Below, piece after piece: positions 18,677 through 49,860 of a stretch of 64,000 bases of DNA (positions are counted from its first letter, which is position 1; each line of letters begins with the position of its first letter). The stretch lies in contig NC_041004.1 of the NCBI RefSeq assembly GCF_004193775.1, positions 29,722,411 through 29,786,410 of the forward strand, given 5' to 3'. Made by a program: the position numbers and the translations under genes. This DNA comes from Glycine soja. Taxonomy: Eukaryota > Streptophyta > Magnoliopsida > Fabales > Fabaceae. The notes below the pieces were generated by a model. It made no database searches and was not told the origin of the DNA. It saw nothing but the letters and a program-made list of their open reading frames with translations.

Positions 18677-19120
18677 CACTATTAGAAAATATACTTTCAA
18701 TATCGGTTATTTACGGCATTCTACATCGATTTTAAAACCGAAGTTGAAAGTACCGATGTTGAATGTATTATTGTTAACATCGGTTGATGTTAACATAAAA
18801 ATGTTAACATCGGTTATTTATAACCAATGTTATATCACTACTAAAATAATAGTATTCTACATCGCGCATTCAACATCGGTGGTTCCAAAAACGATGTTGT
18901 TTTAGAGGCGGTGGTATTTTAGTAAATAAGTGATTTATTTTAACAACGTTCTTGCAAGAAATGATGTTATTTGCGCATTACAACATCGTTTTTGGAACAC
19001 CATTGTTGTTGAACAAAACACGGTGGCAATATTGTAATTAATATGAATTGAGCAACATCATTTTTGTTAAAAAATGATGTAATTTATTCTATTCAACAAC
19101 GTTTTTAAACAAACCCGTTG
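18677..19120 (+). repeat. CACTA left terminus and subterminal inverted-repeat array
   Basis: Starts with CACTATTAGAAAA. It contains several pairs of ACATCGGTT/AACCGATGT-like and ACATCRTT/AACGATGT-like motifs facing each other. Such arrays are binding regions for CACTA transposition proteins. Confidence 0.8.
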
Positions 19121-19321
19121 TGGTCTTGTGTTTTTTTTTGTTTTTTTATTCTTTCTCGCTCTTAGAATATGGAAAGGCACGAACCTAAATTCCAAGAGCA
19201 GCGCCATTTCTCTCTCAGGGATCATGAGCCTCACTCCAAGCATGGGTGATGGAAGGCTATCGTGCGCTAGGTTTGTTGGTTGTTATCCTCTTTGGCGTCT
19301 TGACTCCGCGAGGGCTCCGAC

Positions 19322-19510
19322 ATGCCGTTGATGAGATCAAGAAGAGAAGGACAGCGGCGGCGCGGCGACACGTGGCTGGTGTCGGTATTCGTGATAATCC
19401 AAATCGGGGTTTTCATCGCCACCATGCTCGTCAACGATTGTTGGAACAATTCTCACGACGATTGCGTTCTTCAAGCCCTTAGAAGGTTCTTGTTTCAGCC
19501 TCTCCCCAAG
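19322..19510 (+). pseudogene. Captured fragment of a rhomboid-like protein gene
   Basis: The plus-strand frame from ATG 19322 reads RRRGDTWLVSVFVIIQIGVF, then ATMLVNDC, a DDC and RRFLFQPLPKT. This pattern (GDTWL, hydrophobic segment, VNxC, DC, GRFxFQPL) matches the N-terminal cytosolic/first membrane region of plant rhomboid-like (RBL) membrane proteins. The usual LGRF glycine is replaced (ALRRF). Homology stops near 19510. The catalytic GxSG and His segments are absent, so it cannot be a working protease. It lies inside the CACTA and reads toward the reticulon fragment. Confidence 0.65.
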
Positions 19511-19780
19511 ACGTGCATTTTTTTGTGTGTTTTTTTGTAGAGGTAGGAATTCACGCTCCTGTATTCTCTGACCGTTAGGATTCCAATTGTGGTTTGTGAA
19601 TTTATTCTGTGTTGTTTGAATTTTTAATCGATGATGAACTTGTTTGTTTAGGGTTTGGCATGATTTTAGGTTTGTGTTTGATTAGCTTAGTTTTTGTAAT
19701 CAAATTAGCTCAGCCTTTCCCCATGTTGTTTATCGTTGATAATATCTTATGGCTTTGTTTTTTATGATAATATTTTGCAA

Positions 19781-19962
19781 CTGCTGAAATGTTATTGTGG
19801 AGGAACAAGAAAATTTCTGCTGGCGCACTTGGCAGAGCCACTGCTGTTTGGGTTCTTTTTGAGTTGCTTGAGTATCACCTTCTTACTCTGGTGTGTGACA
19901 TTTTGATACTGTTGCTCGCAGTTCTATTCTTGTGATCCAATGCCCATACTTTCATCCACAAG
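19781..19962 (+). pseudogene. Captured exon of a reticulon-like (RTNLB) gene
   Basis: The plus frame reads [20 protein letters not shown], then [30 protein letters not shown], a TGA, then SNAHTFIHK. This is the first hydrophobic hairpin of the plant reticulon domain, which shapes tubular ER membrane. The TGA replaces the tryptophan expected before SNA. The exon ends at a good donor (CACAA/GTAAGC at about 19962). The upstream acceptor-like site ends in gcaa, not gcag, so it looks mutated. It lies next to the rhomboid-like fragment in the same orientation. Confidence 0.85.
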
Positions 19963-20008
19963 TAAGCCTCTAAAACTTTGTAGTTTGTTGAACAGAGGGG
20001 TAGTATAG

Positions 20009-20296
20009 TTAAGATGAATCATTGATTGGATTGAGCCTGTTTGCAACCCAAACCACAGTTTGAATAGGGATTTTCCTGTACCAAATTCCCAGGTAACGTT
20101 TGTGGGAGTTTCCCAGGGTGAAAAATCCAAGTTCAAAGGTTCCATCTTTAGAAACCAAGGTGGTGTTTTTACCATCATCACTTAGGGACAGGTCTAGAGA
20201 AATTGAGTCAAGTGCCAAGGAAATTCCAGAAAGATAGACAAGTATGTGATAACAAAGGAAAATAATTCTCATAAAAGGCATAATATGGTTCTTCAT
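20009..20296 (-). pseudogene. Captured 5' fragment of an S-locus lectin (G-type) receptor kinase gene
   Basis: The minus frame from ATG 20296 has an N-terminal hydrophobic signal-like stretch ([20 protein letters not shown]). It then gives the start of a bulb-lectin domain with [29 protein letters not shown] and [16 protein letters not shown], where a stop occurs. These blocks are diagnostic of G-type lectin S-receptor-like kinases. The rest of the lectin, SLG, PAN and kinase domains are missing. It is opposite in orientation to the neighbouring reticulon fragment. Confidence 0.88.
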
Positions 20297-20311
20297 GTTG
20301 TAACTTTTCAA

Positions 20312-21954
20312 GAGAACTATGGTACTTCAGCTACATACATATATGGTGATTCATGATATACCAAAGGCAAAAACAACCTGGATTGTAAATTGCTTAGGTC
20401 TTTGCAGCGATGTTCTGGGTGAGTCTCTGCTTACAATCCCAACATGTTATTGACCCCTTGTCTAGTAGTAGTGGGGTGTCACCATTTTATCACTTCAAAA
20501 AAAAAAAAAAACTGGATTGTGTGAAGTGTGAACACAAGAATGACCATGATGTTTTACGGGTAAACATATCAGTGAAAAACATTCATTTAGTAACAAATAA
20601 ATGCAACTTGTGAGGTTGGTTGTAGAAACAACGTCGAACACTCGTGGACACGTTATTGGAGAGAAGAAAAGTAGAAAGAAATAGTTTTAGGTGGGCATAG
20701 TGAGAGTGGGAAAGAACAATTTGCTAGGGTGGTTTCCTTTGAAACATTGCTTAAGCAAAGTTTAGTGATTGGAAATGTGAGACTCCCAAGTCAAAGAACC
20801 TGCTCAATTGGTCCATAAGAAAATGGCTATGTATCATCACGCATAGAACACTTTTCTTGTGGGCCAAAACTTTGGAAAGAAATATCTGTATCTGTTTGTT
20901 AAGTTAGAATATTATACTCCATAGTATTTAGTTGGAAATAATTTATTTATATGTTCTATCTAATTTTTAAGGGACACATGCGTGAATTAATTTACTCCAT
21001 ATGTTAGTTACTTTCAATTCTTTTTAGGAGCCTCAGATTACTTCTGTGTTTTGTCTACACAAATCAAATCATTATCAATCAATTGTTTTTATTTCTTTTT
21101 AATACATAATGGACCATAAGGCTTTCACATAGTAAGGTCACCTTTATTATAATCCTCAGTTAACAGCTACTAATAGAGAAGGTGAGGAGTGGGAAGGGAG
21201 TGGGAAGGGAATAAAATAAAAAGCATATATATCCTCTCTTGTTTGAGAGAAGGGGGAGGGAGCAAAAAAGGGTCTCTTCATCTATTTTGTTTGGAGAGAA
21301 AAAAAAAAACCAAACAACTTGTTGTAAAACCTTTATAATTGAAAAGGTAAAATATATAAAGAGGAAGGGACTCTTTATTTAGATTGTCTCTTTTTTTATG
21401 ATTTAAAAATAACTTTGAAGTTTTAATAATCATAAAGTTATCAAATAGAGATTTAATTTTATGTGTGACAGAATTATTTTTAATCACAGTATTTTTTAAT
21501 TTCAAGTAGGATCAATGAATCGAGTTCCATAACAACAATTCACTCTTCTTTGATTCTTGTTTACACTTGCTCGTATGTAACATTAGTACATCATTATTCT
21601 AAAAGTTATATATAAGAAGATATAAGGATTTTACTCATTTAAATGTGAAATAGGTAGCTTCTCCTATTGGTGTTGAACTGTTGATCAATATATAGCTTCC
21701 AAAAGCAGTGAAGGGACATAATCTTTTAGTAATTCTCTTACTGGTGGAATGATCAAGTACTCTCCTTCCCTTTTTCTCATATGTGATCTGGTTAATGCAT
21801 ATTGGGACATTGGGGTTGCTTGACATTTTTTAGTTAGATAATATCATGCATCTTAGTTTTCTAGATTATTTTCTTATTTCATTTTATTTTTTTGGCAGGG
21901 AACTTCTTATATGTTTTAGGAGAGCTACAGGACAAAAGCCCCAACACATCATAT
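20312..21954. other. CACTA interior without recognised coding sequence
   Basis: AT-rich, non-repetitive-looking DNA between the receptor-kinase fragment and the subterminal array at 21955. It includes a 13-A run near 20498 and a polypurine stretch near 21177-21265. A minus-strand open stretch at 21635-21826 is not recognisable. It may be intron or flank of captured genes. Confidence 0.4.
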
Positions 21955-22394
21955 TCAACATCGTTGCTTTCTGTAAAATGATGTAGAAAGTGCACCTTAC
22001 TACATCAGTGCCTACGTCACCACTGATGTAGAAGTTCCCATATTCAACATCGTTGCTTTCTGTAAAACGATGTAAAAAGCGCAGCTTACTACATCGTTGC
22101 TTAATTTAAAAACGATGTAGAAAATAAGAGATCAACATCATTGCTTAATTTAAAAACGATGTAGAAAATCCGCCTTCAAAGTCGTTGTTCACATCAGCAG
22201 CGTATTTGAAACTAAGGTTTCTACATCAGTCATTAGTATAGCACCGATTTAGAAAAAAAAAAGCTTACTACAACATTCGCTTATGAACTGTTGTTGAAAT
22301 TTTTAAGTTTCAACATTATTATAATAAAAAACGGTCAAACACCATTGTTGAATCGCGATTCTGACCGATATAGAATATGCATTTTCTAGTAGTT
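21955..22394 (+). repeat. CACTA right-end-like terminus with subterminal array
   Basis: Repeated TTCAACATCGTTGCTT / AACGATGTAGAAA units in opposing orientation run up to a terminus ending ctagtagt(t) at 22394. Reverse-complemented, that end agrees with the left terminus at 18677 at about 23 of 30 positions, with the outermost base changed. It could close a smaller element, 18677-22394. The three bases outside do not match the cta at 18674-18676. Confidence 0.7.
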
Positions 22395-22554
22395 TATATA
22401 ACTAACTACAACAAAATAAGTGTATAGATGATGGACGTTGACATCGATTTTCTAGAAAAACCGATGTTAATGAATATATTAACATCAGTTTTTCTAGAAA
22501 ACCGATGTCAACATCCATCATCTATACACTTATTTTGCTGTAGTTAGTTATATA
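22395..22554. repeat. Large near-perfect hairpin (61-bp arms)
   Basis: Arms 22395-22455 and 22494-22554 are reverse complements with three mismatches by eye. The 38-bp centre is itself mostly inverted. Each arm carries an aactacaacaaaataag segment that resembles a CACTA terminus (compare CACTACTACAAAAA at 36179). The left arm could thus be the degenerate left end of a second CACTA. Confidence 0.85.
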
Positions 22555-22800
22555 TAACATCGATTATTTATACATAACCGATGTTAACGTTTGTATGTTA
22601 ACATCGGTTATGTATAAATAAATGTTAACATTGGTTATGTATAAATAACCGATGTTACTAGAAATAACCAACATCGATTTTTTGAAAACCGATGTTAATG
22701 TGCATGTTGACATCGGTTTTTCTAAATAATCGATGTTGTTTACTATATTAACATCGGTTTTTCTTAATAACCGATGTTATTTTCAAGTTTTTTTTATATA
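22555..22800. repeat. Subterminal inverted-repeat array, left side
   Basis: At least six alternating TTAACATCGGTT / AACCGATGTTA motifs separated by AT-rich spacers. It is the same kind of array as 35800-36179 and lies next to the 3' end of the Ulp1-like gene. Confidence 0.8.
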
Positions 22801-23035
22801 AACTTTCTGTTTTTATAATAAACCCAAAATTGTACCTGTAAAATGCAATTTTAGACCCAATTCACAGTAAATAAACATTTTATTCTGCTTTCAAGCAATT
22901 TTAATGGCAATAAACATTGAATAATTGATTTATTATTAACAACTATCAACAAATGAATTCAATGTTCAAATTACATAGGAAATAGCAAAAATGTTAAACC
23001 AAAGTAAACTAAGCTAAATTTAATGTCCCTAAATC

Positions 23036-26000
23036 CTAGCTATGAACTCTAACTCGAAGATAATACTGTTCCCATTGGATCCACATTGCCTTTAATCTCT
23101 CTGGCTCCAATGGTCTAGGATTGTTAAAATACTGCATCATGAAATAAATGATAATAAGTTAATAATGTAATACAAATTATAAAAAAATTGAATTTGTTTG
23201 AAATAAACATACCGCTTTCTAGTTATTCCTGAAACTTCCTAAAATGATGGTGGACATCCAGTGCATGACATCATAGCCGCACTCAATACTTCCTTTTTGT
23301 CTATTACACTAAATACATAATGAAATTTGGATATTAATTAAACAATTAGTGTACAGACACATAAGAAGTATATATAAGTATCGGTTTTATGTAAATGACG
23401 TACCTTGACGACAATCCACCTAGTAGGAGCCTTTGATTTAGGTTGTGGAGCATCATCAAGACCTTTTAAAGCACTGTTCCAAACGAGTAACAATTAAAAA
23501 GTGGTGTTGTTGAGGTATTTGAATATAAAAACATTGAAAAGAACATTGACTTTTTAATTATCCCCTTAAGGTAGTTGTCTGACCTGTTATGTAATGAACA
23601 AAACCAGAAAACTAGGTGTTCCTTGGGCACGATGACCACCATCTGCCTGTGTCCGCTACAGTGGAGATGAATATGGGTTAGTATATTAGTAAACATTAAA
23701 TAAATTAATTTATTTTGTGTGACTTACCCATTCAAGTAGGCTCCAAGGTAGACATCGTGTTTTGAACCCTGCATCCAACTCTTTATGTAACTTTCAGTCT
23801 GAAACTGCGTTTGCCCAAACCTCTGAATAGACTGTGGCTCGAGGAATCCATAGATATCAGAATTCCCCGCTTGCATACTTGTTTCAGTCATATGCCTGTT
23901 TATGTTAAATCAAAGTTAAATATTTATGAATTGAAAGCAATAAGTTAGGTAATTAAAAGTAATCTAAAATGACTTACATAATCCACAACCGTAACACTGA
24001 TATGCTGAGACATTGACCACCGTGTGCGATTTTGGAGAGGTCTTCGTGCTTTATGTAGAGCGGGAAGTCTGGATTAAAGACCCCGAACACGGTGGCATCC
24101 CATGTAACATGGTAAGGCCTCAAGAAAAGCTCTGGGATGGTCAATGTCATCAGATAAAGCGGATCATCGACCTCCGGATTCGGCTTTTGAGGTGGTTTTG
24201 CCGGAGACACAATTGGCTGTTCATGAAACAAAGTTAAATGGGTTAATTTGAGGCACACTGAATGAATTAATTCAAAAAGAAGAAACATATAGTAAGAGTA
24301 AAGTACCTGTTGTGATAAAGACTTGACCAGATGTGTCGGCCAAGCAAGAAAGGTGTGAATTGCCTATCCCACTAAGGAAACCTCATCAGTGGGTACAGGA
24401 ACTGGAACATCTGGATCTTTAACCTCCTCCACACCCACCTTTACTTGGCCAGACAACAAAGAAGTGTTATGAACAATAGTTGATCCCTCATAAACTCTGC
24501 CCAGGGCAACCAAGTGGGCATGATTTACTTCGATGTACAAGCCGCACCTATCTGAGTCACCCATCTCAGGATCGTTTCCTAAGGGATCAAAACAACTCTC
24601 CTTTGTGCTTACTCGAGGACCTGAGGGACTAACCAGATACTCCGGAGGCAGTGCAAGTCCCTGAGATTGCATCTGGGACTGAAACTGGGACTGCATTTGG
24701 CTGAACGATGCCATGAGCTACCTAGTCACTTTTTCTGTGATCGACTCCTCTAGCTGTTCCCTGATTTGCTAGGTCAGCTGCTGCAATTCTTCAGGAGGCA
24801 ACAAGGAAGAGCTGTGGGACGTCCATGGAACCGATCCAAAGTATTTCTTGATGGTGACACCAGATCCAGTAGCACGGACACGTCCAGGGTGCTCTGGACG
24901 TCCAATAGCAATGGTGAGAACATCCTGATGTCCACGGGGGACGAAGGATCCCTATGTCACCTACTCCTCAAAGGAATCCTGCATAGAAAATACAGTTGTA
25001 CATGACATTCACAAAATATTGAAATATAATTGTAATGGTTAGTTGAAAATGACTTACGATCTTCTCAGTGATTTCCTTTGCAGCCTCAGTCGTCATCTCC
25101 CCTGTTTTCTTGGTGCGGACCATCTTCGACTTCATGTGGCGTCTGACGGGGGATGGAGGGTCGATGACATCATCAACGCTTCCTGACTGTGCATCTTCCT
25201 CCAACTTCTTCCTGGTCTTCTCAGTCAGGAGCTTCTGCTCCAAATATTCATAACCCCCACGAGACAAAATGTGGGGGGCAGTGTTCTATTTCTGGATTGC
25301 CTGTGCCTTTTTCTGCACATCCTGCAAAAATAAAACAATAATCTTTCAAATTGCTAGAATGAATTATAACAAGTTAATGTTTTTTGAAAAACAACTTAAA
25401 TGACAAGGTACATACCTCCCAAGAAGGGTCTCAGCGAGTCTGGCAAAACTGGGCCGTATTTCAAATTATGTTGTATTTCTCACATACAGTGTCATCCACA
25501 CCGTCCTAATCAGCTGCAAGGGCCCATTTCCTCGTGAGGTCTGATTTAAACTGCCTTCATCTCTCGCCGACAGTCTGAAGTAACTTCCTTTTCATCCTAC
25601 TGTCAGAAGCCTCTGGGATTTCAAATTCCGCCTGATAATAACAAATAAGGTTTATTTGTTACAATAATGTATTTTTTGGTTATTAATTAAACAACATCAA
25701 ATAAGAAAAGAAAAATACCTGAATATCCTCCCAAATCAAGTCCTTCTAAGCAGTAGGGACCTCCTTCCAGCTCTTGTATGTGATGTCCACCTTATCACGT
25801 TCCACAATCCCCAAATATATTCTTAATTTCTTCCTGTGGGGACTGTCGGCCTTGCCGATAGTAGGATCAACGTGGACCACTAGTCTTTCAGCACCAGGTG
25901 GTCTAGTAGACAAGGATCGTAGACGTGAGGCTTTGCGTGTCCGCTTCACGGCAGACGACGAAGCCGATGTGTCGGAAGAAGGAGGAGGAGGAGAAGGAGG

Positions 26001-26036
26001 AGGAGGAGGAGGAGGGGAGGTAGGTGGAGAAGCCAT
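23036..26036 (-). pseudogene. CACTA-associated Ulp1/C48-like protease gene, about ten exons, decayed
   Basis: A transposon-borne gene on the minus strand. Exons inferred from homology and GT/AG sites: 26036-25719, 25631-25416, 25321-25058, 24978-24307, 24216-23978, 23895-23728, 23655 to about 23551, 23473-23404, 23308-23213, 23131-23036. The start ATG (26036) is followed by a proline/serine-rich leader, then a conserved block with TRPPGAERLVVHVDP and HRKKLRIYLGIVERDK. Later come SRGGYEYLEQKLL, a Q-rich SQMQSQ segment, PEVDDPLYLMTLTIPELFLR, and a C-terminal C48 (Ulp1-like) region. That region has GGHRQMVVIVPKE (catalytic His), CSLHNRSDNYLKGI (Asp) and IECGYDVMHWMS (Cys). It ends with PLEPERLKA and a TAG. 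In-frame stops occur in exons 1, 2, 3, 4 and 9, so no full protein can be made. Splice signals are mostly preserved. Such proteins accompany plant CACTA elements; their exact role is not settled. Confidence 0.85.
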
Positions 26037-26117
26037 GATCCTTCATACAACAACATACAAAATGTAAATTTCGATTACAGACAAATATCGACATCAACAG
26101 TTCTTTATGTAACTAAT

Positions 26118-26538
26118 TTGGAATTGTGGGGTTCAAGGGTGCTGATGCTTTATTATTGTAGGGGTGTGGGTGTGTGTGTCTCTCTCTGTGTGTGTGGGTG
26201 GGTGAGTGTCTCTCTCTGTCTCTGTGTGTGTGTGTATGTGTGTGTGTGTGGCATGGACTTGAGCTGTGGCCTGTGGTGTGTGCAGCCTTACAAAGACCAC
26301 AATGAGTTGTTTTATGACCAAATGCCTGAGGCACGTAGGAGTTTGCGTGTGCGCGTGTGTGTGTGTGGCATGGACTTGAGCTGTGGCCTGTGGTGTGTGC
26401 AGCCTTACAAAGACCAAAATGAGTTGTTTTATGACCAAATGCTTGAGGCACGTAGGAGTTTGGGGGCTGCAACATATATAGGAGTTTTGAGGATATGAGA
26501 AGTACCCTATGGGTGGGATTTCACTTATTCATTTTCAG
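26118..26538 (+). repeat. GT-rich tract and 117-bp tandem duplication
   Basis: GT/CT dinucleotide-rich DNA from 26160 contains two copies of a 117-bp unit. gcatggacttgagctgtggc starts at 26251 and again at 26368, followed by cagccttacaaagacc and cacgtaggagttt. An open frame runs through on both strands because the unit length is a multiple of three. I do not regard this as a gene. It lies just upstream of the Ulp1-like gene start. Confidence 0.8.
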
Positions 26539-26680
26539 TTTGGTAGGTGTTGTTGTAGTTATTGCTGGTTTATATGTTGTGCTTTGGGGTAAAGCCAAAG
26601 AGTTTGCTGAGAATAAACAAACTTGGCTTAGTTCCTTTCACCACTATTTAATAAGCTTAAACAAATTTTGGCAGACATGA
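26539..26680 (+). pseudogene. Captured last exon of a WAT1-type (EamA/nodulin MtN21) transporter gene
   Basis: Begins right after an acceptor-like attttcag (26531-26538). It encodes LVGVVVVIAGLYVVLWGKAK EFAENKQ, the last membrane helix and WGK motif typical of plant WAT1-related transporters. It continues to a stop at 26678-26680. The nine upstream helices are missing. Only about 30 residues carry the signature, so the family call is good but the member is unknown. Confidence 0.7.
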
Positions 26681-27682
26681 CTTAAGTGTACCTTCATTAT
26701 CTGGTTGGAGAAACACTACTTATGATTCCTGCTACAATGGTGCCATTCTCTTCTGAAATTTAATTAAGTAGATGCATGATGTTAATTATTAATGGTTTAA
26801 GGTATATAAATGTTATGTTATTAGGCTGCAGTTCTTGATATAGGACCTATCGAGGGATATAAATTGTTTCTTAGAATTTTGGTTGTTGGACGGCTATAAA
26901 ACACAGGATAGGACATAACAGGTGTTGAACCTAGAATAACAAACCATAATAAGCTTGAACCAGCAGCAGAGAATGACACTCAACCCAAATTTTGCTCAAT
27001 TGTCTGCTGACAACAATCTCAATTGCTAAAATAAAATACATCAGCTTTGAAAAAATCAATTTCTTAAGAGGATAAGTCATAAGTGAGTGGCTAATTACCT
27101 CAGTGTAGGGTACAAAGAAAGCTTTCAAAAAAGGATAAATCAAAAGAGGATAAGAGGATAAGTCATAAGTGATTTAATTGTGGTTTTTAATTGTGATTCA
27201 AAAGAGGATAAGATGTAATAGTAATGAAAATGACTAAGGAGACTTGAATTAAGAAGATGATGATTGGTGTTTCCTATCTATGAAACTTGTATTTGACTTT
27301 TGTTGGTATTTAACACACCTATGACTTTCTATTGTTAATTATGATCATGAATTCAGAATAATTTTTTTTATCATTTTTGAGAATTTGTATGCATACAATA
27401 TACATTGATAAACTATAAAAATTTCAGAATAACAGCTATCTTGCTATAGCGTTTTATGGGGTCAGTCGCTACTCACTGCCATCTGGTATTCAGAACTCTA
27501 ATTCTGTTATTTGAACCACACCAAAAGCATCTAAGGAAATACAAAGATTTATCCATAGTTATGTTAGTTTTTTGTTTTGGTCTTGTAGAATTGAGGAGTT
27601 TGTTTACTTATTTTCTTGTTAAGAATGACAATTATGATGATAATGTCTGGTATCTTTTTACACATCTCTATACGATTGACAG
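26681..27682. other. CACTA interior, no recognised coding sequence
   Basis: AT-rich DNA between the WAT1-type and DnaJ exons. It may contain intron sequence of the captured DnaJ gene, since an acceptor at 27681-27682 ends it. An agaggataa motif recurs several times between 27070 and 27210. Confidence 0.4.
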
Positions 27683-27806
27683 GTATCACCTAGACAAGAA
27701 TGCCAACAATCCTGAAGCTTCGGAGCTATTTAAAGAGGTTGCATATTCTTATAGTGTCTTGTCTGACCCAGAAAAGAGAAGGCAATATGACAGTGTTGGA
27801 TTTGAG
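27683..27806 (+). pseudogene. Captured J-domain exon of an ARG1-type DnaJ gene
   Basis: A 124-bp exon with intact borders: acceptor ttgacag/GT at 27682 and donor GAG/gtcc at 27807. It encodes [20 protein letters not shown] then [20 protein letters not shown], the second half of a J domain. The closest pattern I know is ARG1/ARL (DnaJ 15-type) plant cochaperones. The invariant HPD tripeptide that stimulates Hsp70 is HLD here, so the fragment could not work as a J domain. Helix I and all other exons are absent. Confidence 0.88.
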
Positions 27807-29809
27807 GTCCATTTCTTATTGTCCTTTTCGTGTTTTCTCTTTTTTTTTTTGTTTTTCATTTTCAACTCTTCCTACAGTGTGAAAACATAAATATGGTTTT
27901 TGACATGGATCTCGTGTTTTACTTTGTCTTCCCAGCAAGACAAACAAAACTGACGTAAAAATCTTGTTAGCAATAAAGTATAACATTTCAAACATAACAA
28001 AGGTTCAAATAACTAACCAGCAAATTGAAAGAGCATAAATTCAATTACTTGTAGAATAACTTGTGCTACAAATAACTATCTACAAATGGAATTTGAGGTG
28101 GGACTGTGAGCTCTAGTTGGAAGACGCTAATATCATATATTTCTCATAACCAAGAATGACCACATGTAACAAGATGTCTACCAAATGTAAGCATGATGTA
28201 CGAATGTAACAACATGTACAAATGTAACAAGATGTACAAATAACAAGAACTTCTGTTGGAGCTTCATGGAAAGAGATTAGATAATCTCGAAAACATTGAG
28301 GTGCAGAAAGCTCTGTTGTATGTTTTTAATTTAAATGCACTTATTTTCTATTTGTCTTAGCATAGTCTATGATCAGTAGCCCCAACTGTCAAGTAGTTAT
28401 TCAATTAGTGGTTAAGAAAAACCAGTTATCACTCAATTAGTTGGGTTTTTGTTACTGTTGTAACTGATTAACAACCAGAAATTATTGTATATAAATCCCT
28501 GGGTGTACAAAACAGATTTAGTGAAAATATCATTAATTCCTCAGATCTTCTTTAAATTCCTCTCTCTCTCTCTACTTCTCTTACTTTATCTGTATCCAAT
28601 AGTTTAGGTTGCTTAAATTAGAATGGAATAGATCAAAATGAAATGGATTCCAATCCATTGCATCCAAACCTTCAATTTGTATTCCCTCTCAATTTGGGGG
28701 ATACAGGACAAAATTAGGCTACTTTTTATTGTTTTTATTAAATTATGTTCTATCACATCTCTGCAATGCATCTGCAGCAGGTAAAACTCCTTATTCCATC
28801 CCAACCTTGTTCCTCTTGGTAAGGTAAGTCCATGCTCTGTCATATCTTGACCATGAATGCACCCCTCCAACAGTGAATAATGACATAGCCACCAGCAGTA
28901 ACTTTATTCATATTAGAAGTCCAATGTTTCAGACTATGACACAAGCTGACTCCACAAACATGATTCACATTTCTTCCAATCAAACTAAAGTTGTCTGAAC
29001 CATTATATTGGATATATAATATGATATATAACTCCAAGTAAAATTATTTCATTTTTTTTTTTTTACATTTTTGGTTCCTTTCCCTTTTCTCTACATCCTA
29101 GCATGTCTAATTATAATGTTTAGTTGAAACAAATTGTAGATTTTGTTTAATCCAGTTAACTTGTAGTTATTTTCTTTTTAATACTTACACTGGTCATTCC
29201 AATTTGATCAATGCAGAGCTTACTTATACTAGGGTTGCGAGTGAGAAGTGTGATATCTATAGGCTTCAGAGTACTATCATTGCTTCAATTAGCACTACTC
29301 ATGGCATCACATTATGTATCTCAATATTTTGTTACTAAGTTAACACCATTAAAAAGGGTATAATAAAAACTATCATACACTTTTTTAATATTAGCCATCT
29401 CTCTATCATACACTTTTTAATCCATTGGCCAATGTTAAGGTCATGCTCACTAGGCCTAATAAATAATAATAAAAACTGAGACAAACACAAAACTTGATCA
29501 TAGTCTTCACTTTCAAAGGATGCTAAATGGTATTCTGTAGATGCAACGAGTTCAAACAAAACCAATAGAATGGCTTAGATTCATGCAGTATGTCATGTTC
29601 CTTCTTAGTTCTTCCCATTGTTAAAATCACTAATCATTACTAACTTAAAACTACTGGATCAATCAACATTCAATAACAAAATATAATTAGAACAACCACA
29701 CCAGTAAATTAGTTTACTATTATCTTTGTACCCTAAAATATCTAGAACGGAAAAACAATTAGTAGAGGATCTAGATGCCTATACAAAGTACAAACAACCA
29801 ATACTTTAC
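27807..29809. other. CACTA interior with unassigned sequence
   Basis: No gene recognised. A segment at about 28370-28600 has a TATA-like tatataaatccctgg and a leader ending in a CT microsatellite (28560-28573), like a promoter or LTR fragment. A minus-strand open stretch at 28840-29037 and an exon-like plus stretch after an acceptor-like caatgcag at 29216 could not be assigned. Confidence 0.35.
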
Positions 29810-29928
29810 CTTTCCAAAAATGGGATACTCAGCCTTGTACCCTGTACAGGCAAATTCCTCTGCCTCCGTGCTACTCCCGGGCTCTTCTTTCAGAAACTGG
29901 TTGCATGGAAATGCCAGTATCTCAAGAC
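29810..29928 (-). pseudogene. Captured exon of a glutathione peroxidase gene
   Basis: A 119-bp minus-strand exon with an intact acceptor (GATCTCAG/GT at 29929) and donor (GGAAAG/GTAAAG at 29809). It encodes [17 protein letters not shown] followed by [22 protein letters not shown]. The FPCNQF segment with its glutamine, and the second cysteine in FAC, are signatures of plant thiol-dependent glutathione peroxidases. The exon with the active-site cysteine lies elsewhere and is not present. It is opposite in orientation to the DnaJ exon 2 kb away. Confidence 0.92.
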
Positions 29929-32053
29929 CTGAGATCAACCAACAATACCTTCTCAAGTGAGATCAATTTAATAATTTCTTTTAATCCTTCAGTTTAACTA
30001 AAAGTATTCGGTCACTCAAAAGGCACAAATTTGAAATCCTTCATGTCTTAATGCACTTATTTTAATACTAAATGCACTTCTTTTAGAGCTTGGCATGTCT
30101 ACTTTCTGCATATGCAATTGCTTTCAATTATACAAGTAACAAGTTTAACATAAATGTGTAGTAATTCTCTGCCATTTCTCTGCTGAAAGATATATTCACA
30201 TTTAGTGTTTGATTGTGTCTTAAACAGGATTGCTTCCGAAGGATGAGAGATGAGTTCTATATTTATACTGAATGTTTTCTGGTCACGAAGCTGACCACAA
30301 CCTATTTTTGATAAGTAAACGTAGTAGTATGCCTAAATATGTAGTGAAAGATAAGAAGCCGAGGACAAGCTGTTTTTGTCTTTTGTGGGATACGAACGTT
30401 GACTACCACGCCCGTGCGTACCATTGGTTCTTCCATTTCGGAAGTTTCTGGATTAAGCAAGTGGATTTTTTTTTGAGCTGATGGATCACAATAAAACCTA
30501 ATATTTGTGTTTTTGGGTTTGTGGAAAATACCCAGGATTTGAGGTGTTGAAGAAGAAGGGATAAAGTGTATGGTATGGGGGCGTGGTGACCGAGGGCACG
30601 AAAGGAGGAAACTATTGGCTACAGAAAGTCATTTCTTTAACCGGGTTTCTTTCAAAAAATGATGCAGAGTCTTTGTTTGATGGCTTCTCAGGGTTACTCT
30701 CCTGGCCTTGTCTTGCACCCATAAGTACTGGGCTTGCCCTGCGCTACCATGAAGGTAACATCAAAAAGTTGAGATTTTGCTGGTTTTAGCAATATTAATG
30801 GATGCAATGGTGTTATATTGGAAAAAGGGTGTGTTGATTATATTCATATTAAGTATTAACAAAGGGATTGTGACTATGTGACCTTGGTATGATCACTCTT
30901 GGGTATGTTTAGCAATGCAGGGAATGGGTGTGAATTTTTCATTTTTGGTAAATGTTCTCTAATTTTCACTTGTATATTTTATTTTTATAATGAAAGGAAT
31001 AGAATTAGACATTCTTGTGTTACTTTTAATAATTCTTATTCATAATTGATCAATCTTTGGAGGAAGGAGGTTGGACTGGGGAGGGTTAATATTTCATTTC
31101 TTAATCTATGGAAATAAAAAATGTTTAAGTAAATGAATAATGGTGATTTGAAGGTTACAAATAGTCTATCATTTCATTAGTCTGAATTGTAAATTTCTTA
31201 AACTAGGAGATGTTCACCTATAATAAAGAAATTCCCCTCCAAAACTCTTCATCTTAACTCACCCTTGGTTTTGACAGTGTTAAGAAGTGTATATGAACAT
31301 GTAATGGATCACAATTAAACTCATAGTAACATCCTCCATGAAGTAGTACTTGCCCCCCACCCTTAATTTTGAACTCAAGACATGTTTACACGATTGTAAT
31401 ACTTGTAGTATGTTTCATTACTTATGACATTCTGGCTGAGTAGTCTAGGTTATTGTGCATGCATAATTTTTAATTGCTTAGATTTTAATTTTCTTTTCGA
31501 GACAGGGCTACCAAACATTCTTTCCTTCTCCAGTAGCAAAAGCAGACCTGATCAGATATCAGTCTCGTTGTCTTAAGCCAAGTCCATGTCAGGAGTCAAC
31601 CAAATCTCAAAATGAATGGTTTGATTATAACAAGTTTGTCAATGTCGACTTCTCAATTGAAAGGCATATGCTTATTGATGATCAGAAAACACTTAGTAAA
31701 CTATATTGCATTTTGAGATTCTATATTTATTTTCTGTTATTCAGTATAATTAAGAGGGGATATTATACAATATTTGCACAACAAGTCTCATAAGCCAGAG
31801 TATATGAGTTATGGGAGTTTATTGCAAATTGTTGTAGATGCAGTTGAAACTTGATAGCAATATTATGTGTGGGAAAATAAGTCTATGGGAAATTCCATTA
31901 TTGGCTAAAAATGAGTTTAATGACTTGAACTCACCCACCACCAAACAGTTTGCAAACTTTTGATTTTAGAGTATTAGTGTATAAGTAAGTTTTACTTCAT
32001 TGAGTATGTTGTGACATTGAGTATTCTACGAAATTGTTTGATTACATAGATAG
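29929..32053. other. CACTA interior with unassigned exon-like pieces
   Basis: Two stretches look exon-like but are unassigned. One is a frame at 30583-30789. The other is a frame after an acceptor-like gagacag at 31505, reading GYQTFFPSPVAKADLIRYQS and then NEWFDYNKFVNVDFSIERH, open to about 31794. Given the neighbours they may be further captured fragments. The rest is AT-rich. Confidence 0.35.
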
Positions 32054-32054
32054 C

Positions 32055-32182
32055 AGGGAGCTGGTTTCATGGAATTCGTTGATCTCAACCTATGCCTAGA
32101 TTGGGGATATATGTGAAGTTTTGTTGCTTCTCAAGACAATGAGGTTACAAGGTTTTGGGGCTAAGCCACAGCCTATCACTTG
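32055..32182 (+). pseudogene. Captured fragment of a pentatricopeptide-repeat (PPR) gene
   Basis: The plus frame reads RELVSWNSLISTYA, a TAG, then IGDICEVLLLLKTMRLQGFG. LVSWNSLIS-YAQ-G-xxEVLxLLKxMRLQG is the typical motif of plant PLS-class PPR proteins, which bind organellar RNA. The stop sits where glutamine (YAQ) is expected. Only one repeat is left, and a TGA ends the frame at 32182. Confidence 0.8.
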
Positions 32183-33183
32183 ACTACAAGGACTCACAAT
32201 CAACTTAGTGTTATCCTTGATATGCTCTTCTCGTAAAGGAAACTATACTTGAGATTTCATTGTCCATTAGCAATATTTTCTTGCTATGTGAATGCCAATT
32301 GACACAAGTAATTAATAACACAAAATTTACTCATCCTCTCCATAAATTTGGGGATTGATTCTTCCTAATACTACTAAAATTTTTCTTCGTGAGCAACCTT
32401 CCTCTCAAAGAGACTCTTTGGCACTTGGGTAAGTACTAGTTTATTAGTTGACATTATAAAACCATCTGCGGTTTAAGCATATAAAATTTAGATGGGCCTA
32501 TGCTGATAGTCCACATATATGACTAAGGATTTGTAGTTAATTTATCCTTCCTATGAATGAGGTTGATTCTCCTAAGTTATTAAAATCCTACTTGGTGGGT
32601 AACCTTCTTTAACGAGATCTATTGATGATAAAAAAACTAGTTAAGTAGTTATGATAGATAAAATTGCTAGCGGTTTGTTTAGGCTTGTATAGTATTTTTC
32701 TTGATAGATTTTTACTAGCAACCCATCATATCATTGGCGTCCTACCAACAGTATTGACAGTGCCTACTCATTCTACCAGTATTTTGCAGGAAAATAAAAT
32801 AAAATTTCTTGCTATGATAATTCCTCCTCTTCTTCATGTCTCAAGCATCATCCAACTCATTACTTCTGATCTTGACATCAAACTTTTAGATTTCCCTCAG
32901 CCAAGTTTTCAAATTTCATATGCAAACAAGTAGAAGACCAACCATGTAGTTTTAGAATTCACTGCTCTTATCTATATTAACTAATAAGCACTAACCATAA
33001 TAAATTAACTGATTAACAAACTCTAAGTGAATTTTACTACTCCAAGTAAATTTTGGGAGGACCCTTTGTTTATAGCACATTCAATACTATCTATATTCAT
33101 TCTATTCAACTATATGGGGTTTCGTAACATGACCTATTGCCGAAGAACTCAAGTAACATGCCCCTCTCTGCCATCCCTAGAAG
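32183..33183. other. CACTA interior, unassigned
   Basis: AT-rich sequence with a short plus-strand frame at 32664-32933 that I cannot relate to a family. No repeats or RNA genes noticed. Confidence 0.4.
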
Positions 33184-33429
33184 CTAGAATGAGTCACTGC
33201 TCATTTCGGCAACAAACATTTCCATGTTTGACATTGCAGTAGCAGCTTGAAGCCACCACCTCAACCACACTCCTCCAACAATATCAACAATAATTGAGAC
33301 GTACCCGTTAGTCCACAACTCCTTATTGAGAGGAACAACACCAGTGGCAACCAAAATAGGGGAAAAATAGCCCAGAACCACTTCCCCAACAAGAGTACTA
33401 ATAGTGTCCCAGTAGTTGAGGTCCACCAA
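33184..33429 (-). pseudogene. Captured fragment of a polyamine/amino-acid transporter (PUT/LAT-type) gene
   Basis: The minus frame reads [64 protein letters not shown] and [10 protein letters not shown]. This matches plant polyamine uptake (PUT/LAT, APC superfamily) transporters, which have NYWDS/T, GYFFPLL-GTGAVP and [17 protein letters not shown]. About 15-18 residues expected between GEV and VLGY are absent, an in-frame internal deletion. Both ends of the gene are missing. Confidence 0.85.
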
Positions 33430-33706
33430 ACAACAACTTATCTGACTTCAACCCTCAACAATACCAAAGTCCAACCACAAAGAAGCCTAACTCAAATTTT
33501 TTTCATCAGGCAAAGCCATTGTCTGTGTCTACCCCTCAAACAAAGACCAATACCAATCAAGCCATTCTCTAGTGGGGGTGATTATTATTTTCTAACTCAA
33601 AAACAACCTAATAAGTCTACCCCTCAAACAACGCCCAGTGGCAATCTACCCTTCCAGAAATCACAATTCTCATTCATACAAGATAACAAACAAAAAAGTT
33701 CTAATC

Positions 33707-33711
33707 ATACT
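33707..33711. repeat. Target-site duplication of solo LTR A, left copy
   Basis: atact at 33707-33711 is repeated exactly at 35282-35286, directly flanking the LTR at 33712-35281. Confidence 0.9.
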
Positions 33712-35281
33712 TGTAGAAGCAAGCTTCATGATGTTGAATCAAGATTGATTCAAGTTGTTTTGATGATAACAAAGATGATGACAAAAAGCCCAAAGTATGA
33801 TTTCAAGATTAAATCAAGAACAATTCAAGAATCAAGAGAAGTTTGATTTCAAGATTCAAGAAAAGATGAATTCATGTTTCAAGAGAAGAAATCAAAAAGA
33901 CTTCACAAGGGAAGTATTGAAAAGATCTTTCAAAAAACAAAAATAGCACAATTTTGTTTTTCATAAGAGTTTTTCTCAAAATTTTCTAAGTTACTAGAGT
34001 TTTTATTCTCTGGTAATCGATTACCAATTTCCTGTAATCGATTACCAGCGGAAAAGTTTGTTTTCAAAAGCTTTTAACTGAATTTACAACGTTCCAATTG
34101 ATTTCAAAATGGTGTAATCGATTACAAGATATTGGTAATCGATTACTAGTGTATCTGAACGTTGAAATTCAAATTCATTTGTGAAGAGTCACATCCTTTC
34201 ATAAAAAGCCTTGTGTAATCGATTACAAGGATTTGGTAATCGATTACCAGTGACAAGTTTTGAATAAAAATCAAAAGATGTAACTCTTCCAATGATTTTC
34301 CGGTTTTTCTAAAGGTTATAACTCTTCTTATGGTTTTCTTGACCATACATGATGAGTCTATAAAAGCAAGACCTTGACTTGCATTTTAACAACAATTAAT
34401 TACAACTTTCCAACACTTTGAACTTCTTCTTCTACTTCTTCTTCCTTTGCCAAAAGCTTTCTAAATTTTTTTTGGGTTTCCAAACCTTGAAAACAAAAGT
34501 GTGTTATATCTTTTCATTCTCTTCTTCCTTTGCCAAAAAGAATTTGCCAAGGACTAACCGCCTGAATTCTTTTTGTGTTTCTCTTCTCCCTTTTCCAAAA
34601 GAACAAAGGACTAACCGCCTGAATTCTTTTGTGTCTCCCTTCTCCCTTGTCAAAGAATTCAAAACGACACAGTCTGAGAATTCTTTTGATTCTTCCCTTT
34701 CCCTAAAACAAAAGATTTCAAAGGACTAACCGCCTAAGAATTCTTTTGTTTCCCCTTCACAAAGCTTCAAAGGACTAACCGCCTGAGAACTTTGTCTTAA
34801 CACATTGGAGGGTACATCCTTTGTGGTACAAGTAGAGGGTACATCTACTTGGGTTGTTGTAACTAAGAACAAGAGAGGGTACATCTCTTGTGGATCAGTT
34901 CTAGTGGAGGGTACATCCACTAGGTTGTTCAAAGAGAACAAGGGAGGGTACATTCCTTGTGGATCTTTGCTTGTAAAGGATTTTACAAGGTTGAAAAGAA
35001 ATCTCAAGGACTATAGGTCACTTGGGGACTGTATGTAGGCACGGGTTGTTGCCGAACCAGTATAAAACTATTGTGTTTGTCTTCTTCTTCCCTACACTCT
35101 TTATTTTCCATTGTGCACTTTAATTATCGCTTTTACTTTTGGTTAAGTTTCTTTTCTATTCTTTACTTTCTTAACAACATAGTAAAAGCCTACGAAGGAT
35201 TAGATTTTTAATTAGTAAAGGTTCATTTAATAATTAATTCAACCCCCCTTCTTAATTATTCCGAGGCCACTTGATCCAACA
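33712..35281 (+). mobile_element. Solo LTR A (1570 bp), nested in the CACTA element
   Basis: Starts TGTAGAAGC and ends GATCCAACA, giving TG...CA ends, with a perfect 5-bp duplication and no internal domain: a solo LTR. It contains three pairs of the palindrome GTAATCGATTAC (34013-34247), a TATA box ctataaaag at 34358 and a transcribed-like region. That region has repeats of ctaaccgcctgaaa-type and gagggtacatc-type units (34550-34960). Related copies on the opposite strand lie at 48007-49524 and 49861-51529. No coding sequence; the short frames inside are repeat artefacts. I believe it belongs to a soybean gypsy-type family, but a name needs a library search. Confidence 0.88.
34013..34247. promoter_or_regulatory. 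Three pairs of palindromic GTAATCGATTAC sites upstream of an LTR TATA box
   Basis: Perfect 12-bp palindromes start at 34013, 34034, 34113, 34135, 34215 and 34236, so the within-pair start-to-start spacing is 21, 22 and 21 bp. They lie about 110-345 bp upstream of the TATA-like box at 34358. The first pairs of LTR copies B and C keep the 21-bp spacing. The arrangement suggests a dimeric protein-binding array, by inference. Confidence 0.6.
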
Positions 35282-35286
35282 ATACT

Positions 35287-35790
35287 CATAAACCAAAAAA
35301 GTTCTAATCATACTCTACTCTTACACGTCTAGCAAAATAACAATATTTACATAACAATACTCATAAACCAGATATAACCAAAATTATAAAATAGGCACCT
35401 TGGGAGCATGAAGCACCTCGTGAACACCAACAGACTGAAAGTTACCACCTTGAGCACCTTGCAACTTGCAAGCACGAACCTCCTTGCAGTGACCACCTGG
35501 GTAACGCGCAATTACAAAGAAGAAGAAAAGGAGAAGAAACAAACAAATAAAAACAAGAACAAGAAGAAGAACAAAAGCCTGTACCATGAGGTCGCAAAGA
35601 ACAAAACCCTGTACCATGAGGTTGTACCTGGGTAACGTGCAGTTACAAAAGCCTGTACCGTGAGGTCGCGAAGAAGAAGAAGCGAGGAAGAACAAGAAAA
35701 CCGGAGCTTGAGGAAGAAGAAGAAAACCAGAGCGCGAGGAAGAAGAAGAAAAACAGAGTGCGAGGAAAGTACTTGGGCTCATGCTCTCAT
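35287..35790. other. CACTA interior before the right terminus
   Basis: Purine-rich on the plus strand, with internal duplications: cctgtaccatgaggt-like units near 35578, 35609 and 35653, and cctgggtaacg units near 35498 and 35627. The GAAGAA-rich stretch gives long open frames on both strands that look non-coding. Confidence 0.5.
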
Positions 35791-35799
35791 ATTTTAAAT

Positions 35800-36179
35800 T
35801 ATAAGTACAACATCGGTTTTCTTCAAAAAAAACCGATGTTAATCCATAGATGTTAACGTTAACATCGGTTTTCTGAGATAAACCGATGTTAACATATCAT
35901 ACGTTAACATCCATTTTCAAAAAACCGATGTTAATGCAAACACATTAACATCAGTTTTTTGAAAAACCAATGTTAAGGTATGATATGTTAACATTGGTTT
36001 TTGAGATCGATTTTCGAAAAACCGATGTTAACGTGTATGCATTAACATCGGTTTTTTTGGAAAACCAATGTTAAGAAGAATAATTTATTTACAAATATGT
36101 CACCGCATTTAAATTAACAACGGTTTTGTCCAAAACCGATGTTAATAGGCCGATGTTAAAACTACTTTTTGTAGTAGTG
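35800..36179 (+). repeat. CACTA right terminus and subterminal inverted-repeat array
   Basis: About ten alternating TTAACATCGGTTTT / AAAACCGATGTTAA motifs run up to a terminus whose reverse complement begins CACTACTACAAAAAGTAG. It ends at 36179 and is followed by cta. Confidence 0.88.
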
Positions 36180-38877: not shown

Positions 38878-40263
38878 TGTTAGTCATCATTTATGACTAA
38901 CTTTTGTATTGAAAAGCATTATGAAATTTATGTCTTTTCCCCAATTTATAATTCTTTTTCTAGGTTTGTATATATTTTTAGGTTTAGTTTAATTTTTATG
39001 CAGTAGATATTCCCTTCATTGTGAATTAATGTGTTTTCAACTTCAGTTTCAGGTGAAAAAATGAAGAATAAGAAGGTTGTTGTGGCTGGTGCCTTGCTTA
39101 GCGAGGCATATGTGCTTAGCGAGCAACATCTGCTAAGCAAGACATCAGCCCGCTTAGCGAGTGAGGAGAATCTGGAAGAGAATCTACCATGCAAGCACGC
39201 GCTCAACATGCCATTAGCTTGCCCAACGACTTATTTGTCTCTTCTGGCACCCAGCGCGCCTGACTCGCTCAGCCAAAAATCACTAACTTGCGTTCGCTTA
39301 GCGCGAAAATGACACTAAGCGAGCCTTCGAGGACAAAAAACCCTTAAAAGCCGAAGTTGGCAAAAAATAAGGAGAAGCTTGAGAACCTATGCAATAGAGA
39401 TATACGTGAGAAACGCAACAGGGCAAGGGAGCACCAAAAACCTCAACTTTCATGAGGATTCTAGGTTTTAGAGTGATTTTTAGGTTCCTAGAGGTGGAGG
39501 AGACATCCCTACCACTGTGTAATCTGAATTTTGCTTCCAAAACCTCCTATTGTAACTGAAAGGTGATAACTTGCCATGGAAGGCTAAAGCTTTTGTTGGG
39601 AATTTCTGCTGAGCCTTGATGTAAATATTCTTTACTATCTATTTAATGTTGTTATGATGTGTTCATTGCTTCTATCTGCACTTAATTCTTGCATGCTTTT
39701 GGTCTGATCATCCATTTGTGTGTAAAGTTAGGATTTTTAGCATTGGGAAATGTTTTGAATCCTTAGAACTGGATAGAGCAGGGCTAGATAACTGCATTAC
39801 TGGACACAAAGTGCAGGGTTTTAGTTTTTAATATGCTGTAATCGTAATGCAATTCGTTTAGGCTAAGTTTGACGAGACATCCAAGAACAAGGTTTAAATA
39901 GAATTAGTCCATTCACACGAGGGATTGGTGTTTGGTATATTTGCCTTCAGCATAGAACACAAAAACAACCTTAAATAGAGAAAAACTTGTAATTGCATCA
40001 AGTCACTCAGTAGAAAGGCCCAACATTTTAATCATTTGTTTATCTTGCGCATTTACATAGTTAATTTTGTAGTTATCTTTAGAATTGCAACCTTATCCTA
40101 TTTTTATTTCAATTTCATGATGTTACGCAAATGCTTACTTATTGAATGAATGTTTTTCTGAATGAAACAAACTCCTTGTGATTCGATACTCAATTCTTAC
40201 CATTTTATATTACTTGTGACTCAGTACACTTGCTGATAAATTTCGCAGTTGTAAAAGAGCGGA
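38878..40263 (+). mobile_element. LTR-like insert (copy 1) in the gypsy RT
   Basis: A 1.37-kb non-coding insert starting TGTTAGTCATCATTTATGAC. The part shared with copy 2 ends at TTTCGCA (40247), with about 16 further bases before gypsy sequence resumes. acaat (38873-38877) and acaac (40264-40268) could be the target duplication. With these limits the gypsy RT frame is continuous across the insert. The left part contains repeated gcttagcgag / ctaagc motifs. TG...CA-like ends and the size suggest a solo LTR. Copy 2 lies at 45730-47116 in the same orientation. Confidence 0.65.
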
Positions 40264-45729: not shown

Positions 45730-47116
45730 TGTTAGTCGTCATTTATGACTAACTTTTGTATTGAAAAGCTTTATTAAATTATGTCTTTTTCCCCAATTTA
45801 TGGTTCTTTTTGTAGGTTTGTACATATTTTTATGTTTAGTTTAATTTTTATTCAATAGATATTCCCTTCATTGTGAATTAATGTGGTTCAACTTCAATTT
45901 CAGGTGAAAAGATGAAGAATAAGAAGTTGAAGCAGTTGATGTCTCGTTAAGCGAGGCCTATGCGCTTAGCAAGCAACATTCGCTAAGCGAGGCACTCAGC
46001 TTGCTTAGCGAGTTAGGAGAATCTGGAAGAGGATCTGTCAAGCATGCACGCGCTCAGCGCGCCATTAGCTCACCCAACGAGTTATTTGTCTCTTCTAGCG
46101 CTAAGCGCGCCTGGCTCGCTAAACGCGCCTGGCTCGCTAAGTCAAAAATCACTAACTCTCACTTAGCGCAAAAAATGGTGCTAAGCGAGCCTTCGAGGAC
46201 AGAAAGCCCTTAAAAGCTGAAGTTGGCGAAAAAAAGGAATGCTTAGAGAGTTCTGATAGTTTTTGTGAAGAGAGTCGCAACAGAGGAAAACAGGGTAAGG
46301 GAGCACCAAAAACCTTAACTTTCAAGAGGATTCTAGGTTTTAGAGTAATTTCTAGGTTCCTAGAGGTGGAGGAGACATCCCCACCACTATGTAATTTGAA
46401 TTTTGCTTCCAAAACCCCTTATTGTAGCTTAAAGGTGATAACTTGTCATGGAAGGCTAAAGCTCTTGTTGAGAATTTCTGCTAAGCCTTGATGTAAAACT
46501 CTTTACTATCTATTGAAAGTTGTTTTTATGTGTTCATTGTTTCTATCTGCATTTAATTCTTACATGTTTGTGGACTGATCACCCATTTGTGTGTAAAGTT
46601 AGGATTTTTAGCATTGAGAAATGTTTTAAATCCTTAGAATTGGATAAAGCAGGCTAGAGAACTGTATGTCTAGACACGGAGTGTAGGGATTTAGTTTTTA
46701 ATATGCTGTAATCTTAATGCAATTCGTTTAGGCTAAGTTCGACGAGGGATTTGAGAATGAGGTTTAAATAGAATTAGCCCATTCATGCGAGGAATTGTGG
46801 TTTGGGGTAGTAGCCTTCGGCATAGAACACAGAAACAACCCTAAATAGAGAAAAATACCTAATTGCATCAAGTTACTCAGTAGAAGGACCCAACGTTTTA
46901 ATCATTTGTTTTCTCTCACATTTAGATAGTTAATTTTGTAGTTACCTTTAGGATTACAAAAAATATCTTTGCTTATTTCTATTTCATGGTTTTATACAAA
47001 TGTCTACTTATTGAATGAATATTTTTCCGAATGAAACAAACTCTCTGTGATTCGACACTCGGTTCTTACCGTTTTATATTACTTGTAACTCAGTACACTT
47101 GCTGATAAATTCCGCA
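45730..47116 (+). mobile_element. LTR-like insert (copy 2)
   Basis: Second copy of the insert at 38878: starts TGTTAGTCGTC, ends TTCCGCA, and has the same order of motifs. These include the arrays of gcgcttagc/gctaagcg palindromes (45945-46190) and the shared segment with ggctaaagctcttgttga and taatatgctgtaatc. Flanks gagtg and gtagtg are only an approximate duplication. Non-coding. Confidence 0.7.
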
Positions 47117-47352
47117 GTAGTGCAGACTGTTTCAGAGAGAGTTAACAGAGTGTTGTAAAGAATATTTGATTTTATATCAAACTTCTGTTTGTGAAAATCA
47201 GGAGTGGCTAAGTGACAAGCAATATTTGAGTGTTCTTATATTCAGGGGGAGTCTAAGGGTTGTGTTAGGATTGACCTTGAGAATACTTATAAGCCATAAG
47301 TGACAAGAAAGATACTTGTTGTTATCAAGTTTGATTAGTAGAACCCTATACT
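47117..47352. other. Flank between insert copy 2 and CACTA end
   Basis: Non-coding sequence with a polypurine-like cagggggag at 47241. Together with 45560-45729 it may be an older retroelement fragment, but I cannot assign it. Confidence 0.35.
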
Positions 47353-49524: not shown

Positions 49525-49860
49525 TAAGCATATCCACGTGATACTCTCACTTAGGAAAACTAGGTAATAAGTGTCGAGGTCACCCTGTCGTGAACATGCA
49601 ACTCCCCCCCTCCACAGTGATCAGCCTGAGTCTCAAGGGTGTTCTAAACTGAGTGACATACCCCAAGTACAAGTATTCCTCCTCATGAGAAACTACAAGT
49701 ACTTACTGACAAAGTTTATATTATTTCCATGCAATATGAAGTATGAAACATGGGCACCATCAATGTACTGACCGTGGATAATTAAAGATTCTAAGTCATC
49801 CCCCTTCAGAGATGCTTAAAACTCTTTAATCACTCTGTCCCCCACCAGGGATATCCAACA
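49525..49860. other. Interval between LTR copies B and C
   Basis: Non-coding, GC-richer sequence with a C run at 49602-49609. It probably belongs with 51530-53283 to one LTR into which copy C inserted, because copy C has 5-bp duplications at its edges. Confidence 0.45.

Follow-up and report, generated by a model that had tools for sequence, protein, structure and literature searches.

How plant transposons acquire pieces of genes is poorly understood. According to the accessible portions of the papers cited in this text, several members of the CACTA superfamily carry such pieces and are the closest described systems to the locus considered here. In Glycine max, the 5.7-kb element Tgm-Express1 holds pieces of five host genes, which are spliced into chimeric transcripts (PMC1947982), and the Tgmt* family is recognized by a subterminal motif consisting of TTGGCAG plus AATCTTACAG (PMC2613891). 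The Tpn1 family of Ipomoea nil comprises non-autonomous CACTA elements whose interior has been replaced by host genic DNA and which produce chimeric transcripts (PMC5105172). The Pack-CACTA elements of Arabidopsis, maize and rice enclose coding DNA within CACTA ends and a 3-bp duplication; in maize they are the elements that hold most distinct loci, the number of which rises with element length (PMC8903248). For soybean, SoyTEdb contains 65 CACTA elements (PMC2830986). Here, we describe positions 18677-36179 of a 64-kb stretch of Glycine soja DNA (the window, C3:29722411-29786410), in which one CACTA element lies nested inside another and both carry fragments of host genes. We are highly confident that they belong to two gene-collecting families of CACTA elements and that a member of one was inserted into a member of the other.

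The outer element spans the whole interval (17.5 kb) and, as a sequence-only reading of the same DNA had proposed, it has CACTA-type termini flanked by the target site duplication CTA on both sides. Its left end, CACTATTAGAAAA, begins exactly at 18677, just after CTA, and its right end, the reverse complement of which is CACTACTACAAAA, stops exactly at 36179 and is followed by CTA; the two ends agree at 11 of their first 13 bases and are unlike beyond them. The CACTA...TAGTG ends and the 3-bp duplication are those of the CACTA superfamily, and so are the clustered direct and inverted subterminal repeats: 21 of 26 ACATCGG/CCGATGT motifs fall in three subterminal blocks (18677-18835, 22395-22800 and 35800-36179), whereas base shuffles predict 3.75 for the entire window. 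A strict CACTA end pattern, composed only after the outer ends had been inspected, was seen 3 times with 0.065 expected per 64 kb, and loose end matches (three mismatches at most) are frequent by chance (10.18 per 19 kb); therefore the case for the element is not built on the end pattern. Both outer ends recur across the genome searched (1.014 Gb, 1,119 contigs), in which the scans score best candidates only and copy numbers are thus lower bounds. Among the best 40 of 2,093 candidates scored for the right end, similarity was 79-85% apart from the window itself, and the two ends occur together in one dispersed copy, the complete sister C20:4691642-4703710 (12,069 bp, ATC/ATC).

The inner element occupies 18836-22394 on the + strand (3,559 bp) between two copies of TAT (18833-18835 and 22395-22397); its left end is exact, and its right end departs from a regular CACTA end in the mutated terminal base (reverse complement AACTACTAG). 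The nesting is established by three observations that agree with each other. Firstly, the right flank of the inner element, 22395-22554, forms a palindrome (92.5% over 160 bp), and the other arm of this palindrome is an empty site, to which the joined flanks align gap-free across the junction. Secondly, when 18677-18976 was compared with the genome and 40 of 1,534 candidates were scored, one of them being the window itself, none of the 39 other places crossed the boundary at 18835/18836 (breaks at query 154-163): 29 match the outer side only, with the best match ending at query 157-163, and 10 match the inner side only, starting at query 154-160. Thirdly, the C20 sister has a single TAT, i.e., an empty site, where the window holds the inner element. 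The enclosure of all the cargo by one outer end pair with CTA/CTA might suggest that a single Pack-CACTA captured every fragment itself; inner ends with their own TAT/TAT, empty sites in both the palindrome arm and the C20 sister, and left-end matches broken at the inner boundary in 39/39 other scored places leave that explanation a vanishingly small probability. The picture of eight donors in one element is therefore wrong, since three of them belong to the nested inner element and five to the outer one.

Both elements have sisters elsewhere in the genome. The C20 outer sister lacks both the inner element and the solo long terminal repeat (LTR) found near the right end in the window, and has a single ATACT in place of the latter. 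Outer cargo is found again on C5 (95-96%), C10 (94-97%) and C4 (94% from 32174 onward), in sisters that are partial as seen, no strict CACTA end occurring within the C5 and C10 stretches examined. The outer copies differ in their subset of cargo: the C20 sister keeps the 03G132900-like, PPR and transporter pieces and lacks 28130-30307 with the glutathione peroxidase piece, which is present in the C5 and C10 copies, and the C10 copy is also alike to the DnaJ zone as far as 27752. The inner family includes four complete members (duplications AGA, AAT, GTT and ATT), and the rhomboid-reticulon cargo is shared by two sisters, C10:28811001-28814048 (91% DNA) and one at C18:16.66 Mb (94-96%). The former is a complete element (3,048 bp, ATT/ATT) with rhomboid, reticulon and ARGONAUTE pieces, that is, a transposon bearing a fragment of the silencing machinery. 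A further, related zone, C10:12604701-12607100, contains pieces of pectinesterase (Pfam 3.7e-46) and of a PPR-like sequence (7.2e-6, below the cut-off) beside a longer WAT1-like reading and is probably another gene-collecting element.

Host coding DNA lies between the ends and its donors lie elsewhere in the genome, an arrangement characteristic of a Pack-CACTA. Taking as sources the best matches listed outside element copies, close source loci (88-98% DNA) were located on C6, C9, C10, C11, C16, C18 and C19, the last with two donors, and the captured pieces stand in mixed orientations (Table 1), as had been noticed from the sequence. Eight donor genes are supported: seven of those already named (rhomboid, reticulon, S-lectin kinase, DnaJ, glutathione peroxidase, PPR and polyamine transporter) and a 03G132900-like gene, which is new to this analysis, as are the inner element and the solo LTR. 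In the inner element, the rhomboid and reticulon sources align piecewise to proteins P0122 (residues 1 to 371) and P0241 (residues 1 to 259), respectively, while the kinase piece consists of 95 codons (20012-20296) and ~1.4 kb upstream of the start, sharing 92/95 residues with P0005, residues 1-435 of which are encoded by the C11 source at 100%. In the outer element, the PPR source sits within an intact 755-aa PPR frame (Pfam 5.1e-82), and the C16 source codes for a polyamine transporter, of which 466 residues could be aligned. DNA matches point to candidate sources for the DnaJ piece (Table 1) and for the glutathione peroxidase piece, which is 93% alike to C19:41354640-41355466 and 96% to C19:41353802-41354141. 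PDB searches with the rhomboid and the transporter pieces gave no match. The 03G132900-like piece is 97% identical over an unbroken 1,391 bp to C19:41288752-41290142, intron included, and its two exons share 27/32 and 54/67 residues with P0001. The reported preservation of exon borders stands for this piece, and the DnaJ and glutathione peroxidase exons look preserved too (AG/GT flanks); it does not extend to the annotated chimera discussed below, which uses cryptic-looking splice sites. Taken together, the source loci and sister copies that this genome contains support well the capture of pieces of unrelated host genes by CACTA elements, and the gene pieces would have been captured as DNA, with their introns.

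One of these captures may be followed more closely. The kinase match is absent from both inner sisters, C10:28811001-28814048 and C18:16.66 Mb. The C18 sister has 1,995 bp between its reticulon piece and the stretch matching 21740-21955, and in the window that position is taken by 1,730 bp of kinase-locus DNA, each junction of which carries two additional bases. If the C18 arrangement represents the older state, the kinase capture replaced part of the interior of the inner element and was not added to it, as would happen if a broken inner element had its gap filled from an unrelated template, the kinase locus, and was then rejoined. The kinase promoter may have been carried along within the captured upstream DNA, pointing leftwards over the rhomboid and reticulon pieces. 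A different route, capture by tandem insertion, in which two neighbouring elements excise jointly via their outer ends and take the DNA between them, has been described for Pack-CACTA and Pack-type elements (PMC13317346, PMC8903248) and would suit outer ends that are unlike beyond 13 bases. We consider it unlikely here, though deserving some weight: donors on different contigs would require many rounds, the kinase piece replaces interior sequence between preserved flanks, and the ends of the C20 sister are similarly unlike each other, so that their divergence appears to be a family trait.

Several observations weigh against the interpretation as two nested gene-collecting families, or against parts of it. 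The replacement by kinase DNA depends on the C18 sister alone as the ancestral form, the C10 sister being unaligned beyond 20009. The WAT1-type donor named by the sequence-only reading was not confirmed, as its zone gave no Pfam match and no WAT1 protein in the protein search; a longer reading of this zone at C10:12.6 Mb presumably resembles WAT1, which stays unconfirmed all the same. That locus has three extra stretches within the zone, each bounded by 3-bp direct repeats, and the idea that the window holds a spliced, cDNA-like copy was dropped on this account. No transposase family was detected by Pfam in 27 of the 138 window frames and 4 further window pieces, and the tnp2 gene of an autonomous CACTA member is thus missing from the frames tested. 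Furthermore, TTGGCAG is absent from the subterminal blocks (8 in the window, 4.2 expected) and AATCTTACAG occurs 0 times; therefore, the element is not of the Tgm family as described. Finally, the glutathione peroxidase and 03G132900-like sources lie ~64 kb apart on C19 (C19:41288752-41355466), and their order and orientation there match those in the element. This would be expected if the fragments were the remains of an ordinary gene-rich region full of insertions, an explanation that is hardly credible with the remaining donors on C6, C9, C10, C11, C16 and C18 and with the cargo found again in sister elements; no single co-linear multi-gene region accounts for the donors, although these two are neighbours. 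Not every piece, therefore, need be a separate random capture, and the C19 pair may reflect two captures from one neighbourhood or a single capture with a large loss.

The nested pair probably arose as follows. The outer family would have collected the DnaJ 15, glutathione peroxidase, 03G132900-like, PPR and polyamine-transporter pieces and then spread; an inner-family element with rhomboid, reticulon and the 5' part of the kinase would have landed within the subterminal region at the left of the present outer copy; and a retrotransposon would have left a solo LTR near the outer right end. We infer this order of insertions, and suppose that the transposase was supplied in trans. The inner element is probably immobile alone because its right end has lost the terminal base, in which case it would be locked in place and its cargo would move with the outer unit. 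Here cargo has also grown by nesting.

The same structure has entered annotated gene sets. Six spliced exons of the window, two in the inner element (exons 1-2) and four in the outer one (exons 3-6), reproduce 208/209 residues of the Glycine soja model JHK87_006813 (P0141), with GT-AG at all five introns and a complete frame. This predicted chimera could be a real expressed gene built by two transposons, comparable to the Tgm-Express1 exons in flower-colour transcripts: its frame is complete, all its introns are regular, it is nearly identical to another Glycine model, and a CACTA element of soybean has been reported to yield spliced chimeric transcripts (PMC1947982). We regard this as doubtful, since the case consists of one model and one member sequence, the splice sites in the first two pieces, rhomboid and reticulon, look cryptic, and the near identity may reflect no more than one locus shared by two closely related genomes. 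It is more doubtful still that the two elements together have created a lasting new gene, with a six-exon frame that comes from five host genes and one further stretch (exon 3) and is preserved almost unaltered in another Glycine genome. If they had, the same families would form an ongoing exon-shuffling system that works by swapping interior for foreign DNA, other soybean models (rhomboid-reticulon-ARGONAUTE and F-box-polyamine transporter) would come from the same system, and the captured kinase upstream region would run antisense over the rhomboid and reticulon exons.

Other soybean models overlap with these families. The Glycine max model JHK84_028001 (P0152) matches the inner sister at C10:28.81 Mb, with 98% over its reticulon part, and has a C-terminal Piwi piece (7e-13) whose nearest solved structure is argonaute 10. 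In JHK84_028319 (P0002), an F-box protein, residues 322-426 are those of the C10 outer copy (105/105), and the 17 residues preceding them are weakly like the right part of the element (13/17, E 0.002); the transporter piece of that copy, C10:37769635-37769949, forms the end of P0002, an apparent exonisation. GLYMA_05G088550 (P0143) holds both 03G132900-like exons. These cases are a warning that soybean gene sets include transposon-made chimeras, and the exact junctions given here are available for expression tests with existing RNA data.

Table 1. Features of the nested CACTA elements in the window, with positions, strand and supporting matches.
Feature	Position	Strand	Evidence
Outer left terminus and first part of left subterminal region	18677..18835	+	Ends, motif counts, genome recurrence
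RHOMBOID-like 8 fragment	19322..19511	+	89% DNA to C6:8698127-8698324; 80% over 49 aa to P0122
Predicted six-exon chimeric gene model	19424-19485, 19803-19890, 26456-26512, 27624-27806, 31506-31695, 32050-32099	+	
188-bp stretch repeated elsewhere	19510..19697	.	86-95% at places on C19, C14, C12, C5
Reticulon fragment, in-frame stop	19737..20009	+	Pfam 3.6e-15; 95% DNA to C18:51578183-51578455
5' part of G-type lectin S-receptor kinase locus	20012..21737	-	96-97% DNA, three pieces, to C11:46123684-46126176
ACATCGTT-type subterminal repeats of inner element	21950..22260	.	
Outer left subterminal region, second part, including 160-bp palindrome 22395-22554	22395..22780	.	Repeats, sister alignment
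Broken multi-exon gene remnant	22990..26036	-	90% alike in C20 sister over 23192-26345
117-bp tandem repeat, ~2 copies	26224..26462	.	
Repeated zone holding candidate WAT1 piece	26463..27144	+	93% at C15:19307059-19307740, many partial places
DnaJ 15 (ARG1-type) fragment; J-domain exon 27675-27806	27211..27909	+	Pfam 2e-10; 95% DNA to C10:51030691-51031386
Glutathione peroxidase locus fragment; exon 29807-29929	28351..30039	-	Pfam 4.5e-11
03G132900-like gene fragment	30297..31684	+	One stop in exon 1 (30659-30754); exon 2 follows the intron, with its protein match running to 31697
PPR gene fragment	32007..32174	+	92% over 168 bp, C9:450434-450601
Captured stretch	32174..32855	.	93% to C15:10066075-10066753
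Polyamine transporter fragment, 18-codon deletion	33116..33444	-	90% and 88% DNA to C16
Solo LTR, 1,570 bp, ATACT duplication both sides	33712..35281	.	TG...CA ends, no interior
Outer right subterminal region and terminus	35809..36179	-	Ends, repeats; recurs in genome at 79-85%

Some further features complete the description of the window. The gene remnant at 23.0-26.0 kb, with its stops read as X, matched none of the Pfam families even when E values as high as 10 were allowed; it is possibly a CACTA-associated gene of the Ulp1/Ptta type. A search for extra terminal inverted repeats inside 26050-33720 returned 11 weak pairs, none of which was accepted. The element at 33712-35281 has all the characters of a solo LTR, namely TG...CA ends, a 5-bp duplication and no interior. 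Outside the nested pair, additional CACTA-type ends occur at 53591 and 47353; the former and the right end of the outer element are related, the final 163 bp of the outer element being 73% alike to it, and its pairing with 54884 as one element was rejected, as the flanking triplets differ. At 48012-51533, a few hundred bases separate two LTR-like direct repeats that are 87% alike and are relatives of the solo LTR; a 1.4-kb direct repeat, 84% alike, is formed by 38878-40252 and 45730-47121; and direct repeats several hundred bases long overlap one another at 1243-4692.

No published description of this element was found in a literature search that left out most subscription journals. It belongs to a known kind, that of Tgm-Express1, Tpn1 and the Pack-CACTAs, within which it is unusual in how much cargo it carries and how well this can be traced: a single genome contains the donor loci, the sister elements and the empty sites, and one capture could be read before and after it took place. 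As far as the accessible texts describe them, Tgm-Express1 is likewise a CACTA element from soybean, and the pieces of several unrelated host genes in it, both exonic and intronic, can serve as cassette exons; it has five donors in 5.7 kb and nesting is not mentioned in that text, whereas here eight donors are distributed over two nested elements in 17.5 kb (PMC1947982). The Tgmt* elements of Glycine max are similar in being large, with imperfect 13-bp ends, a 3-bp duplication and asymmetric subterminal palindromes, and differ in a subterminal motif unlike that found here (PMC2613891). The Tpn1 family is from another plant family, and the part of the paper available makes no mention of nested pairs (PMC5105172). 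Finally, the accessible text on Pack-CACTAs does not include soybean or Glycine max (PMC8903248), and the present locus differs from those elements in being nested and in offering a before-and-after pair for a capture.

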